This document shows, piece by piece, positions 49,250 through 53,936 of a stretch of DNA of 64,000 bases. Where the stretch lies: contig JAGAYR010000003.1 in the NCBI GenBank assembly GCA_017940415.1, forward strand, positions 1 through 64,000, given 5' to 3'. The position numbers were made by a program, and so were the translations under genes. The number at the start of each line of letters is the position of its first letter. The first letter of the stretch is position 1. This stretch comes from Lachnospiraceae bacterium (GTDB taxonomy: Bacteria > Bacillota > Clostridia > Lachnospirales > Lachnospiraceae). The notes under the pieces are model-generated. The model saw nothing but the letters and a program-made list of their open reading frames with translations, was not told where the DNA came from and did no database searches.

Positions 49250-50065
49250 TTATAGCTTTTGGGAAGATTTTTCACAAATATGACACATATACATCTCGGC
49301 TATATCAAGGTCTGTAAGACTGTACAGCATACGCGCTCCGGCGGCGTCTTCGACCTCATTTACTATCCATTTCCCGTGATCTCTTATCAGATCGACACCG
49401 ATGTAATCGGAAAGCAGATAATCGGACAGTTTAAGAGCCATCCTGACTGCTTCTTCGGGAGGCTCAATAAGACTTGCTTCCCCGCCGAGGCTGAAATTAC
49501 TCCGGAAATCATTTTTTGAAGTGCGCAGAACGGAAGCTACGATCTTGCCTCCAAGCACATAAATGCGCATATCCTGTCCGGGAGTATCGCACATCTTCTG
49601 GATTATCCATTCCGAAGAGTTGAGCCCCCTTATGATCTCCCTTACTTCTTCATATTTTCTGGCTTTGAAAACCCTGTTTCCTCCGTGGCCTCTGCGGTGT
49701 TTTACAATATATGGCGCAGAAAACGGGATCTCGTCTTCGGGAGTGTCCCCGGGAACCGTTTCCATAACGGGTAATCCCAGCTCCTGAAACAGGTAATACT
49801 CTTCAAGCTTGTCATTACCGATACGCACGGTCTCCGAATTGTTAAAACTCTTGATACCGAGCCCTTCGAAATATCTGGATAATTCTTCGTCCCTCGACCT
49901 GTTTATTACAAAGGCCGCTTCAGTTTCATCAAAAGCCTGCCAGGGAGTTACAAGATCAAGACGGATACCCCTTTCGGAAGCTTTCTCCGTAAGCCGGTCT
50001 ATGAACCATCTGTTTTTTTCAATATCCGCTTCAAAATATACTAGAAGCGCTCTGTTATCTTTCAT
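49250..50065 (-). CDS. RimK-type ATP-grasp ligase (second of a pair)
   Basis: 271 residues. The ATP-grasp fold is visible: NDKLEEYYLFQELGLPV, PYIVKHRRGHGGNRVFKA (nucleotide-binding loop), EWIIQKMCDTPGQDMRIYVL and the metal site KWIVNEVEDAAGARMLY, which has Glu and Asp where related enzymes have Glu and Asn. RimK-type enzymes join an amino acid, often glutamate, to a carboxylate. Its start overlaps the paralogue upstream by 11 bp, and about 30 percent of residues look shared in a visual comparison. Substrate is unknown. It ends near the start of the next gene with no terminator seen. Confidence 0.85.
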   Translation of the reverse strand: MKDNRALLVYFEADIEKNRWFIDRLTEKASERGIRLDLVTPWQAFDETEAAFVINRSRDEELSRYFEGLGIKSFNNSETVRIGNDKLEEYYLFQELGLPVMETVPGDTPEDEIPFSAPYIVKHRRGHGGNRVFKARKYEEVREIIRGLNSSEWIIQKMCDTPGQDMRIYVLGGKIVASVLRTSKNDFRSNFSLGGEASLIEPPEEAVRMALKLSDYLLSDYIGVDLIRDHGKWIVNEVEDAAGARMLYSLTDLDIAEMYMCHICEKSSQKL

Positions 50066-50927
50066 CCATGTACTCTTTTATATAACTTATTATGTGTTCG
50101 GCCATGTTTATGCCGGTGCATTCGAGAGTAGTTTTAAAATGAGGATTTGAATTGACCTCACAGATAATGGGGCCCTCTTTTCCGAACAACACATCCACTC
50201 CGGCAAAATCCAGTCCCAGTGCCTTGCATGCGGCGATCGCCAATTCTTCCTGTTCTTTGGTGGCGGTGAAACTCTTCATACTTCCACCGTTTGTGATATT
50301 AGAACGGAAATCATTGTCATTATATCTGTACATCGAAGCCACTACCCTGTCTCCGACCACATTTATCCTGACATCCCTTCCTGCGGATTCTTCAATATAT
50401 TCCTGCATTATAAAAGGATGTTCCTTAAATGAAGCGATAAGTCTTTCCGCCTCATACGAATTTTTGACCAAATGAACCTGCTGTCCGAATGAACCGCGGT
50501 TTTCCTTGATGATCATGGGATAACCCAGTTCATTTTCCGCCATTCTCAGGAAAGTCATGTCGGTACACCCGAAGGCAGGGTATGCCTTGGGAGACAAAAA
50601 GGTTTTCGGAGTCCTGATCCCGCCCTCAACAAGAGCGATGGCTGTCTGTCCCTTATCATCGCAAGCCTCGATACTGGCAGATGAATTAAAAAGCCTGAGT
50701 CCCATCTTCTCAAGGCGCGAAGCAAGGAGAATATCCTTGTCCCAGAATATTCCGAAATCTGGAAGTTCATATTCCGAAAACCTGCTCTGAACGCTGCAAT
50801 GAATATCGGAAGATGTCTTCAGCTCCAGCTCCACTCCCACCTTTTTACCGGCTTCAAGGAGCAATTTGTAAATCTCGCTGAACTTATCCCATTTAACAAA
50901 TGAATTTACTATTAACCAGCCTTTCAA
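50055..50927 (-). CDS. RimK-type ATP-grasp ligase (first of a pair)
   Basis: 290 residues. It shows CDDKGQTAIALVEGGIRTPKT, then the ATP-grasp core MIIKENRGSFGQQVHLV, MQEYIEESAGRDVRINVVGD and the metal-binding IICEVNSNPHFKTTLECTG. It is complete, and closer to classical RimK than its neighbour because the final Glu-x-Asn-x-Asn is kept. It and the next gene overlap by 11 bp, so two similar ligases are made together. Possible roles are peptide tailing, cofactor glutamylation or amino-acid ligation. No small peptide gene was found next to them. Confidence 0.87.
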   Translation of the reverse strand: MKGWLIVNSFVKWDKFSEIYKLLLEAGKKVGVELELKTSSDIHCSVQSRFSEYELPDFGIFWDKDILLASRLEKMGLRLFNSSASIEACDDKGQTAIALVEGGIRTPKTFLSPKAYPAFGCTDMTFLRMAENELGYPMIIKENRGSFGQQVHLVKNSYEAERLIASFKEHPFIMQEYIEESAGRDVRINVVGDRVVASMYRYNDNDFRSNITNGGSMKSFTATKEQEELAIAACKALGLDFAGVDVLFGKEGPIICEVNSNPHFKTTLECTGINMAEHIISYIKEYMDER

Positions 50928-51459: not shown

Positions 51460-53463
51460 TTACTGCTTTCTGAACTGTACAGGGGTTACTCCGTAAGTCT
51501 TCTTGAACATTCTGTTGAAATGTTCTACATTTTCATAACCGACCTCAAGGGCGATATTCTCGATGGTCTTGTTAGTGTCTTTAAGAAGAGTTTTTGCTCT
51601 CTTAAGCTTTTCTATGCGGAGGACGTCCTGGAAAGTCTCTCCGGTCTTTTCCTTAATGTATTTTGAAAGATAAGGTCTGGAAAGGTGGAACTCTTCTGCC
51701 ATTGAATCCAGGGATACATCCTGGTAATTTCTCTGGATGTAGGTAAGGATCTCTACAAGCCTCTCTTCACGGGCCCTGTTTATATGCTGGTCGGAAGCCA
51801 CCTTATTTACACAGCTTACAAGTGCGGCGTTGGAAGCCTTGATGATATCCTCATCGACTCCTACACCCCAATATATCTTGCCTTCTGATACTACGCTTAC
51901 ATATGAAGCCGCCTTGGAGGAACTGGTCTTGGAGATGGCGTGCTCCTCGTATCCGGTGAGTTCGTAATCAACCCCAAGATAGAGCTTGATCGCATTACTT
52001 ACGGAGTCGAGTCTTCCGTTTCCTACGGTAACAACCTTCTGCTCACCGCTCTTATCCTTAAAGCTTACGGTAGCTTCTATTCCGCCGTTTCCGAGCTGCT
52101 TATAGTGGATCTCGGTGGCATCGAAAACAGGTCTGGAGGTTACATACACATCCTCAAATACCGAGAACATCTCATCGGGTTTGAGCTCTTTATGCTTTCT
52201 GTCGGATACGCCCTTCATAAGGTAGCCGACTTCTTCCTTCATGGCTGCGGGAAGGCTGAAACCGAACTGCTGCTTAAGAACAAATGCAACTCCGCCCTTT
52301 CCGGAAGTGGAATTTATACGAATGACATCCGACTCGTACTCTCTTCCGATATCCGAAGGATCGATGGGAATATAGGGAATATCCCATCTTACCCCTGTCT
52401 TGCCCTCTGCACGGTAATTCATTCCCTTGCTGATGGCATCCTGGTGGGAACCTGAGAAAGCTGTAAATACAAGGTCTCCGCCGTAAGGGGTTCTCTCATG
52501 GACCTTCATATTTGTAAATCTCTCATAATCCTCGCGGATCTTCATGATATTGGAGAAATCAAGTCCGCTGTCCACGCCGTGTGTGACCATGTTCATGGCT
52601 ACGGTTACAAGGTCTACATTACCGGTTCTCTCACCGTTTCCGAAAAGAGTACCCTCAACACGGTCCGCACCTGCAAGAACACCAAGCTCAGCATCCGCAA
52701 CTCCGGTTCCTCTGTCATTGTGAGGATGAACGGACAGAACTACACCGTCACGATATTTCATGTTGTCGGACATATATTCGATCTGATCGGCAAAAACATG
52801 GGGCATAGCGACCTGTACGGTGGAGGGAAGGTTGATTATCGCCTTCTTCTCGGGAGTGGGCTGCCATACATCAAGTACCGCATTACATACTTCAAGAGCA
52901 AATTCGGGCTCGGTCTGAGAAAAGCTCTCGGGGCTGTACTCGAACATGAAGTTTCCGTCCGTCTCATCGGCGAGCTCTTTCAATAACTTAGCTCCGTCAA
53001 CGGCGATCTTAAGTATCTCGGGCTTTTCTTTCCTGAACACCTGCTCTCTTTGTTCTACGGAGGTGGAATTATACAGATGCACGATAGCCTTGGGACATCC
53101 CTTTACAGCATCGAAAGTCTTACGGATAATATGTTCCCTTGCCTGGGTAAGAACCTGAATGGTTACGTCATCGGGAATCATATTTCTGTCGATCAGGGCT
53201 CTGATGAATTCAAACTCGGTATCGGATGAAGCGGGAAACCCTACTTCGATCTCTTTAAATCCCACCTCAACGAGAACTTTGAAAAACTCCAATTTTGTCT
53301 CCAGACTCATGGGATCGATAAGAGCCTGATTTCCGTCACGAAGGTCAACACTGCACCAAATGGGAGGTGCGGTAATCCTGTCTTTTTTTACCCAATTATG
53401 GTTCAGTACGGGAGGCATATAATATGTAGGCCTGTACTTCTCACTGATATTGATCTTACTCAT
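51460..53463 (-). CDS. leuA: 2-isopropylmalate synthase fused to AraC-type DNA-binding domain
   Basis: 667 residues in one open frame; ordinary class II LeuA is about 550-560. Residues 1-440 are the enzyme, which condenses 2-oxoisovalerate with acetyl-CoA as the first step of leucine synthesis: WCSVDLRDGNQALIDPM holds the metal and catalytic residues, VLSVHPHNDRGTGVADAELG the His pair, and GFPASSDTEFEFIRAL and GNGERTGNVDLV are also typical. Residues about 440-555 are the LeuA regulatory domain, with NGRLDSVSNAIKLYLGVDY. From about 565 to the end is an AraC/XylS pair of helix-turn-helix units: VSLDSMAEEFHLSRPYLSKY and KTIENIALEVGYENVEHFNR, ending FKKTYGVTPVQFRKQ. The fusion suggests a leucine-responsive enzyme that also binds DNA; that is inference. 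Confidence 0.93.
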   Translation of the reverse strand: MSKINISEKYRPTYYMPPVLNHNWVKKDRITAPPIWCSVDLRDGNQALIDPMSLETKLEFFKVLVEVGFKEIEVGFPASSDTEFEFIRALIDRNMIPDDVTIQVLTQAREHIIRKTFDAVKGCPKAIVHLYNSTSVEQREQVFRKEKPEILKIAVDGAKLLKELADETDGNFMFEYSPESFSQTEPEFALEVCNAVLDVWQPTPEKKAIINLPSTVQVAMPHVFADQIEYMSDNMKYRDGVVLSVHPHNDRGTGVADAELGVLAGADRVEGTLFGNGERTGNVDLVTVAMNMVTHGVDSGLDFSNIMKIREDYERFTNMKVHERTPYGGDLVFTAFSGSHQDAISKGMNYRAEGKTGVRWDIPYIPIDPSDIGREYESDVIRINSTSGKGGVAFVLKQQFGFSLPAAMKEEVGYLMKGVSDRKHKELKPDEMFSVFEDVYVTSRPVFDATEIHYKQLGNGGIEATVSFKDKSGEQKVVTVGNGRLDSVSNAIKLYLGVDYELTGYEEHAISKTSSSKAASYVSVVSEGKIYWGVGVDEDIIKASNAALVSCVNKVASDQHINRAREERLVEILTYIQRNYQDVSLDSMAEEFHLSRPYLSKYIKEKTGETFQDVLRIEKLKRAKTLLKDTNKTIENIALEVGYENVEHFNRMFKKTYGVTPVQFRKQ

Positions 53464-53517: not shown

Positions 53518-53546
53518 AAGATACTACTACTCTCTTTGAAAAGCAA
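53518..53546 (-). promoter_or_regulatory. Promoter of leuA
   Basis: Minus-strand -35 TTGCTT (53541-53546) and -10 TATCTT (53518-53523) with 17 bp between; start predicted near 53511. The short leader contains a CAGATAT/ATATCTG hairpin just before the GAAGAAGGAG ribosome binding site. Confidence 0.6.
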
Positions 53547-53586
53547 GAGGGATTTTAATCTATTTTATTGATATTTTTTAATGCAG

Positions 53587-53624
53587 ATTTTAGCAAACCG
53601 CCGAGTCTAAGGCATTTTAGCAAA
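53587..53624. promoter_or_regulatory. Two direct repeats upstream of leuA promoter
   Basis: ATTTTAGCAAA occurs at 53587-53597 and 53614-53624, 27 bp from start to start, about 41-80 bp upstream of the leuA -35 box. AraC-family proteins bind direct repeats in such places. It is a candidate site for the DNA-binding domain of the LeuA-AraC fusion. Confidence 0.45.
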
Positions 53625-53627
53625 ATA

Positions 53628-53663
53628 ATAAGCCAATTTTCTCCGCTCGGAAAATTGACTTAT
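53628..53663. terminator. Terminator after smr gene
   Basis: ATAAGcCAATTTTC and GAAAATTGaCTTAT form a 14-bp stem with one mismatch, an 8-nt loop and T-rich flanks on both sides; 25 bp past the smr stop and just beyond the direct repeats. Confidence 0.75.
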
Positions 53664-53687
53664 TTTAATATTTTATATTGATTTATT

Positions 53688-53936
53688 CTAAAACAGTTCC
53701 TTTAAAATCAAAACAGTAATACCCTGATTATCTCCCGGAATAATACGTTTTACTTTCTTGTTATATCTGAAAGAGTCGTAGATCATATCCCTGAGATTTG
53801 TACCTCTGTTAAATCCATGGATAAGGCGTATCTGATATGTTCCGTCACCGGCACCCGAAAGAACTTTTTCTATTCTTTTTTCCGCTTCATCGCATCTCAT
53901 TCCATGCAGATCCACGGTGATGAACGGTTCGTCCAT
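53688..53936 (-). CDS. Small Smr-domain protein
   Basis: 82 residues from ATG 53936, preceded by AAAGGAG. It consists almost only of an Smr domain: ITVDLHGMRCDEAEKRIEKV and the family's LIHGFNRGTNLRDMI (LxGxG-like), ending VKRIIPGDNQGITVLIL. Smr domains are nicking or RNA-cleaving modules in MutS2 and also occur alone; this one is short, and lacks the usual N-terminal helical segment. Role unknown. It lies divergently from the DUF4867 gene. Confidence 0.82.
   Translation of the reverse strand: MDEPFITVDLHGMRCDEAEKRIEKVLSGAGDGTYQIRLIHGFNRGTNLRDMIYDSFRYNKKVKRIIPGDNQGITVLILKELF

Follow-up and report, generated by a model that had tools for sequence, protein, structure and literature searches.

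A single open reading frame of 667 codons, without internal stops, was found to join a complete 2-isopropylmalate synthase (LeuA) to a complete C-terminal AraC-type double helix-turn-helix (HTH) in a 64-kb stretch of Lachnospiraceae DNA, here called the window, and this fusion is real. Fused leuA genes are preceded by a putative tandem AraC-type operator, which appears to be new, and we propose that the protein is probably a working 2-isopropylmalate synthase which at the same time controls transcription of its own gene, as an activator that leucine would damp. The predicted binding of the fusion to DNA is strongly supported by the sequence comparisons described below; activation rather than repression, and leucine as the signal, are what we infer from the promoter layout and the order of the domains.

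The fusion gene and its distribution in Lachnospiraceae

The features of the locus are collected in Table 1. All four Pfam domains of the fusion (HMGL-like, IPMS_D2, LeuA_dimer and HTH_18) exceeded their cut-offs, and the NCBIfam model NF002991 (2-isopropylmalate synthase) matched residues 8-554 with 785.7 bits (cut-off 455). The C-terminal double HTH was covered over the full length of both HTH_18 (1-80 of 80) and HTH_AraC (1-42 of 42), and it matched the chains of AraC, MarA, SoxS and Rob. The solved chain of M. tuberculosis LeuA (1SR9, 644 aa), which is of the same LeuA type, aligned with the fusion up to residue 523 and again over residues 517-556, where the match ended; it thus covered the LeuA part only, with the aligned active-site residues conserved. 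In an alignment of 40 LeuA sequences (32 fused and 8 unfused), the fusion residues R42, D43, E179, H246, H248, N282, H340 and Y364 were invariant, and we take them to match the catalytic and metal residues R80, D81, E218, H285, H287, N321, H379 and Y410 of the M. tuberculosis enzyme. In the leucine domain, G481, G483 and L485 were invariant and N482 and Y505 nearly so; these are presumably leucine-site residues of the regulatory domain. The open frame, the Pfam domains and the invariant active-site residues confirm the initial annotation in its description of a complete LeuA joined to a complete AraC-type double HTH, in which the motifs of the enzyme and the two HTHs are intact.

Table 1. Features of the fused leuA locus in the window, and high-scoring operator matches away from leuA in other HTH-bearing genomes
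Feature	Window position or genome	Strand	PWM score	Basis
leuA-araC fusion gene, 667 aa	51460..53463	-		Open frame; Pfam and NCBIfam; 89 of 397 family genomes
Catalytic HMGL-like domain, residues 35-311	52531..53361	-		Pfam; invariant active-site residues
IPMS_D2 post-catalytic domain, residues 330-397	52273..52476	-		Pfam
LeuA_dimer (leucine feedback) domain, residues 426-555	51799..52188	-		Pfam; 1SR9 alignment
Variable linker, residues ~556-575	51739..51798	-		Between Pfam domains; high dN in most pairs compared
AraC-type double HTH, residues 588-667	51463..51702	-		Full-length HTH_18; conserved recognition-helix region
Probable -10 hexamer TATCTT, 21 bp from operator, without TG extension	53518..53523	-		Read from sequence
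Proximal tandem operator (putative)	53545..53581	-	38.7	PWM scan; only exact core match in genome
Weaker distal operator-like site, 110 bp further upstream	53655..53691	-	18.3	PWM scan; two core mismatches
Site before leuCD	G207		37.6	NCBIfam names leuC, leuD
Site before ilvBN	G191		33.7	NCBIfam names ilvB, ilvN
Site before leuB-ilvD-ilvB	G341		29.7	NCBIfam names leuB, ilvD; ilvB by eye
Site 545 bp before trpBA	G282		29.5	Named by eye; counted as not branched-chain
Site before nitroreductase-like gene	G297		27.0	Named by eye; counted as not branched-chain
Site before leuCD	G216		25.0	NCBIfam names leuC; leuD by eye
Site before ilvN-ilvC	G042		21.1	NCBIfam names ilvN, ilvC

A search of the databases for further LeuA-AraC fusions, which the initial annotation had suggested, was productive. 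Full-length fusions with an open frame, counted from the matched rows, were present in 89 of 397 Lachnospiraceae genomes, among them single-contig genomes and the isolates P6A3, AC2028, Dorea sp. 5-2 and Sporofaciens musculi. Because the same fusion recurs full length and open in these genomes, a frameshift or sequencing error in the window, which the same annotation had named among the observations that would undo it, is excluded, and an assembly artefact was likewise rejected. The named records that carry the fusion belong mostly to Lachnospiraceae. In an order-wide draw, at least 50 of 392 genomes carried it, and among the matches listed all came from the family of the window, the matches being sorted by E-value, so that a very divergent fusion outside the family could be missed. 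No account of a LeuA-AraC fusion was found in the literature searched at the level of titles and abstract openings.

The fusion was the only PF08502 match found in the genome of the window, which is 84% complete, and the only one in 81 of the 89 fused genomes, as counted by eye; since most hosts thus have a single match, the enzyme part of the fusion is very likely needed. In a close relative (L014, 800-2665) the HTH reading is lost after residue ~579, probably through a draft-genome error.

The operator, the leuA promoter and the proposed mode of action

A 37-bp motif, TTAAAAtAaATCAAtaaAAatGATTAAAttTaTCACT, was common to the upstream regions of the fused leuA genes. Motif alignment showed that its two half-sites form a direct repeat with an offset of 22 bp, and an early guess of a palindromic operator that would match the two-fold LeuA dimer was therefore abandoned. 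Apart from the two sites of Table 1, no place in the rest of the window had a PWM score above 5. Between both operator-like sites there is also an exact 11-nt direct repeat, ATTTTAGCAAA, at 53587-53597 and 53614-53624 (27 bp start to start).

The position of the operator relative to the promoter was nearly constant. In a free scan, a -10-like hexamer was located 21-23 bp from the operator end in 63 of 69 loci, and in one further locus none was found. When a spacing of 21-23 bp was imposed, a TGn extension was present in 61 of 69 loci, compared to 11% at random positions; loci L021 and L138 (no site), L220 (site too near the end) and L147 (38 nt) were skipped in this test. Matches to the -35 element were weak, with a median of 3/6 versus 2/6 at random positions. 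With this spacing to the -10 element, the operator would lie at about -71 to -35. AraC/XylS regulators as a rule bind tandem half-sites that are about two helical turns apart and adjoin the -35 element, and the offset between araI1 and araI2 is 21 bp, compared to 22 bp at fused leuA. An arrangement of this type was found at the fused genes, both in the offset and in the distance to the -10 element. The leuA promoter of the window is a poorer example, given that its probable -10 hexamer has no extension; the free scan preferred a different hexamer there, 18 bp from the operator.

On these grounds we propose that the LeuA dimer would carry two AraC-type DNA-binding domains on linkers, and that each of them would bind one half of the tandem site, whose 22 bp correspond to about two helical turns. 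The occupied site would adjoin the -35 element of the leuA promoter as araI1-I2 does at the arabinose promoter. Since the leucine domain directly precedes the linker, leucine (or substrate occupancy) would probably alter the posture of the DNA-binding domains, in such a way that the leucine-free enzyme would drive leuA and the leucine-bound enzyme would not. Activation is the most likely action on leuA, because most of the promoters combine an extended -10 element with a weak -35 element. The initial annotation had suggested that the enzyme reports leucine and pathway state to the genes that it controls; the predicted action on genes is strongly supported by an operator that follows the HTH almost without exception in the family and, in some lineages, also stands before other leu/ilv operons (see below); the reporting, like the sign of the regulation, is an inference.

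The same operator could instead be bound by the fusion as a leucine-dependent repressor, with the leucine-bound enzyme shutting off leuA, aided in some lineages by another site close to the ribosome-binding site. A further, weaker operator-like site was indeed located 73-75 bp downstream of the main operator, near the gene start, in 16 of 70 loci (e.g. L134, L137 and L214); 15 of these 16 belong to one 25-locus clade, the chance rate is about 5% per 110 nt, and such a site would suit repression as well as activation. The -35 matches that are somewhat better than random would also fit a repressor, and repression of its own region is on record for the trigger enzyme PutA (PMC8249747). The main site, however, is located upstream of the -35 element and not over the -10 element or the start, its near-constant spacing is typical of activation, and the prevalence of extended -10 elements with weak -35 elements also argues against a repressor, which we therefore regard as possible but doubtful.

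Association of the operator with the HTH

Of the non-redundant LeuAs with an HTH (fused or split), 70 of 72 had the operator, compared to 1 of 43 LeuAs without an HTH, when loci with at least 220 nt of upstream sequence were counted (Fisher's test, 8.5e-28, which ignores relatedness). The well-supported branches of the tree yielded no more than 3 independent contrasts of HTH versus operator, and all branches together 8, numbers that do not allow a significant result; of 200 pairings on well-supported branches none was opposite, and a few had no difference in one pair. The upstream PWM scan found no operator in the fused loci L021 and L138, and the HTH-less locus L170 had a weak site, with a score of 13.0 against a null maximum of 11.6.

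In a two-fold cross-validation on 400 nt of upstream sequence, 54 of 59 fused loci without a T-box scored above the maximum of 590 resampled sequences. Loci with a T-box did so in 1 of 11 cases when fused and in 1 of 35 when unfused; of 10 unfused loci that lack a T-box, 2 did so, both of them split-HTH loci. The analysis was extended to 900 nt with a model trained only on fused loci without a T-box, using loci with at least 300 nt upstream. The motif was then detected in 56 of 58 fused loci without a T-box and, outside the training set, in all 13 loci (11/11 fused with a T-box and 2/2 split), whereas only 1 of 42 HTH-less loci had it. The operator of the fused loci with a T-box lies 399-815 bp upstream of leuA, and their apparent lack of an operator was an artefact of the 400-nt limit.

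A tree of the LeuA part was built from 117 non-redundant loci; it is a quick tree in which 51 of 114 inner branches are drawn open. All 71 fused loci fell into a single clade (support 80), which counts 82 members because 11 unfused loci are nested in it; this topology fits one gain of the fusion followed by several losses. In the split loci L049/L163 (G061) and L173 (G078), the HTH is located just 3' of the leuA stop in another frame, and the operator is kept; this may be a real split or a draft error. Orthologues with leuA and the AraC domain as separate genes, which the initial annotation had considered as evidence against a fusion, thus occur in these two genomes only. The other nine unfused loci of the clade had no recognisable HTH in the 601-800 nt searched downstream (for L094 the search was done on L161, from the same genome), and the operator was absent from all nine.

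It could be argued that the operator is owned by a separate AraC-family regulator and that the HTH of LeuA is a passenger or has another role, given that fused genomes contain other AraC proteins that are 36-45% identical to the HTH of the fusion (loci L068-L079). We consider this unlikely, because the operator follows the HTH in the counts given above, is missing from all nine HTH-less loci of the fused clade and is kept in both split-HTH loci.

Distances of the HTH and of the LeuA part agreed (Mantel r 0.774, with 0 of 300 shuffles as high, for 69 loci), and the recognition-helix region was nearly invariant across 69 fused loci. In 15 pairs, the HTH had a dN of 0.014-0.196 and a dS from 0.91 to saturated; in 9 of the 15 the LeuA part had the lower dN. 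Although the repeated loss of the HTH indicates that the enzyme does not need it, a non-functional tail that was kept by chance after gene fusion is very improbable in view of the low dN with high or saturated dS, the recognition-helix region and the matching operator.

Other operons, T-box leaders and comparison with known systems

In order to find further sites, the core pattern was sought with up to one mismatch in the 397 family genomes, and it was found in 103 of them. Exact core matches numbered 41, of which 40 were in HTH-bearing genomes, and 37 of these 40 were located before leuA, as judged by eye. The full model was applied to all 16 matches of 0-1 mismatch that HTH-bearing genomes have elsewhere than before leuA, and to all 33 that occur in HTH-less genomes. 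Seven of the 16 scored above 18.6 (Table 1) and the other nine at or below 11.4. Five of the seven precede leu/ilv operons, namely leuCD (in two genomes), leuB-ilvD-ilvB, ilvBN and ilvN-ilvC. Among the 33 matches in HTH-less genomes, two scored above 18.6 (23.0 and 20.1), neither of them before a leu/ilv gene, with the genes named by eye. Additionally, the best leuC, leuB and ilvB loci were scored, without covering every ilvB paralogue: 5 of 66 regions from 22 fused genomes exceeded the null maximum of 18.6, versus 0 of 24 from 8 unfused genomes. Only two of these five loci are new (leuB of G017 and ilvB of G232), because the other three supplied queries. In the fused genome G623, an operator match with a score of 26.0 was located 97 bp before an amino-acid permease-like gene (L266, 1753-3264), whose NCBIfam matches are below the cut-off; this genome is outside the 397-genome sample and was not counted.

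In the genome of the window, none of the scored loci (leuB, leuC and ilvB) had a clear site, and a wide regulon was rejected there. Since only its leuA promoter has a clear site, the fusion in that genome looks like an autoregulator rather than a protein that heads a regulon. The predicted conserved core is therefore control of leuA by its own product, and a putative site at other leu/ilv operons is confined to some lineages.

For Bacillales and Clostridia, T-box control of branched-chain synthesis has been reported (PMC2494555). A T-box core word, searched as a regular expression within 600 nt, was present in 11 of 72 loci with an HTH versus 35 of 43 without it, leaving 8 of 43 HTH-less loci without a T-box; the expression misses variants, and by eye a T-box-like core can also be observed in L030 and L046 (fused) and in L187 (HTH-less). 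The Rfam model detected a T-box before leuA in 6 of the 14 loci that are unfused or split (12 genomes), compared to 2 of 20 fused ones, and found none in the window. HTH-less LeuAs mostly have a T-box leader, and most fused ones lack it. Because independent pairs gave no clear trend, T-box replacement as an independent trend is unsupported, and displacement should be read as an association only.

Other leu/ilv operons would have acquired the same site in some lineages, and the leuA T-box leader is missing in most fused lineages. A wider one-protein loop can be drawn from these distributions. Occupancy of the committed enzyme by leucine and substrate would directly set how strongly leuA is transcribed, and the same would hold in some lineages for leuCD, leuB-ilvD-ilvB, ilvBN and ilvN-ilvC; in most of the fused lineages this loop would have displaced the tRNA-sensing T-box, an RNA sensor. 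We judge this wider proposal to be evenly balanced between right and wrong.

Ada joins an AraC-type HTH to DNA methyltransferase domains and acts on its own promoter; it differs from LeuA-AraC in that it repairs DNA by suicidal methyl transfer and is not a pathway enzyme. In E. coli, PutA, NadR, BirA, PepA and PyrH presumably have domains of types other than AraC. These five trigger enzymes combine metabolic activity and DNA binding in one polypeptide (PMC8249747), a combination that is predicted for the fusion, in which enzyme and HTH both appear intact and a matching operator lies upstream. None of the five is known to catalyse a committed step of amino-acid biosynthesis and to carry an AraC-type domain, whereas the predicted target of the fusion is a biosynthetic promoter; PutA binds only its own putA-putP control region (PMC8249747). 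At araBAD, according to PMC4760080, binding of araI2 recruits RNA polymerase, and AraC acts as a ligand-controlled dimer on two operators that adjoin the promoter, the proximal one being the recruiting one, and on distal operators; the layout proposed for the fusion may be likened to this. The ligand module of AraC is a small sugar pocket, whereas that of the fusion is a full enzyme.

The feedback inhibition of an enzyme is usually treated as a layer separate from the control of its gene; here one protein would combine the two, and LeuA-AraC could be a ready-made allosteric leucine sensor. The family contains natural experiments, namely nested lineages that have lost both the HTH and the operator, and lineages with the operator on further leu/ilv operons. 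The fusion also matters for leucine supply in Lachnospiraceae, a common family of the gut.

Eight neighbours of leuA in the window were scanned, with no leu/ilv gene among them. Two adjacent RimK-like ATP-grasp proteins are encoded just downstream of leuA, at 49250-50927 of the window.
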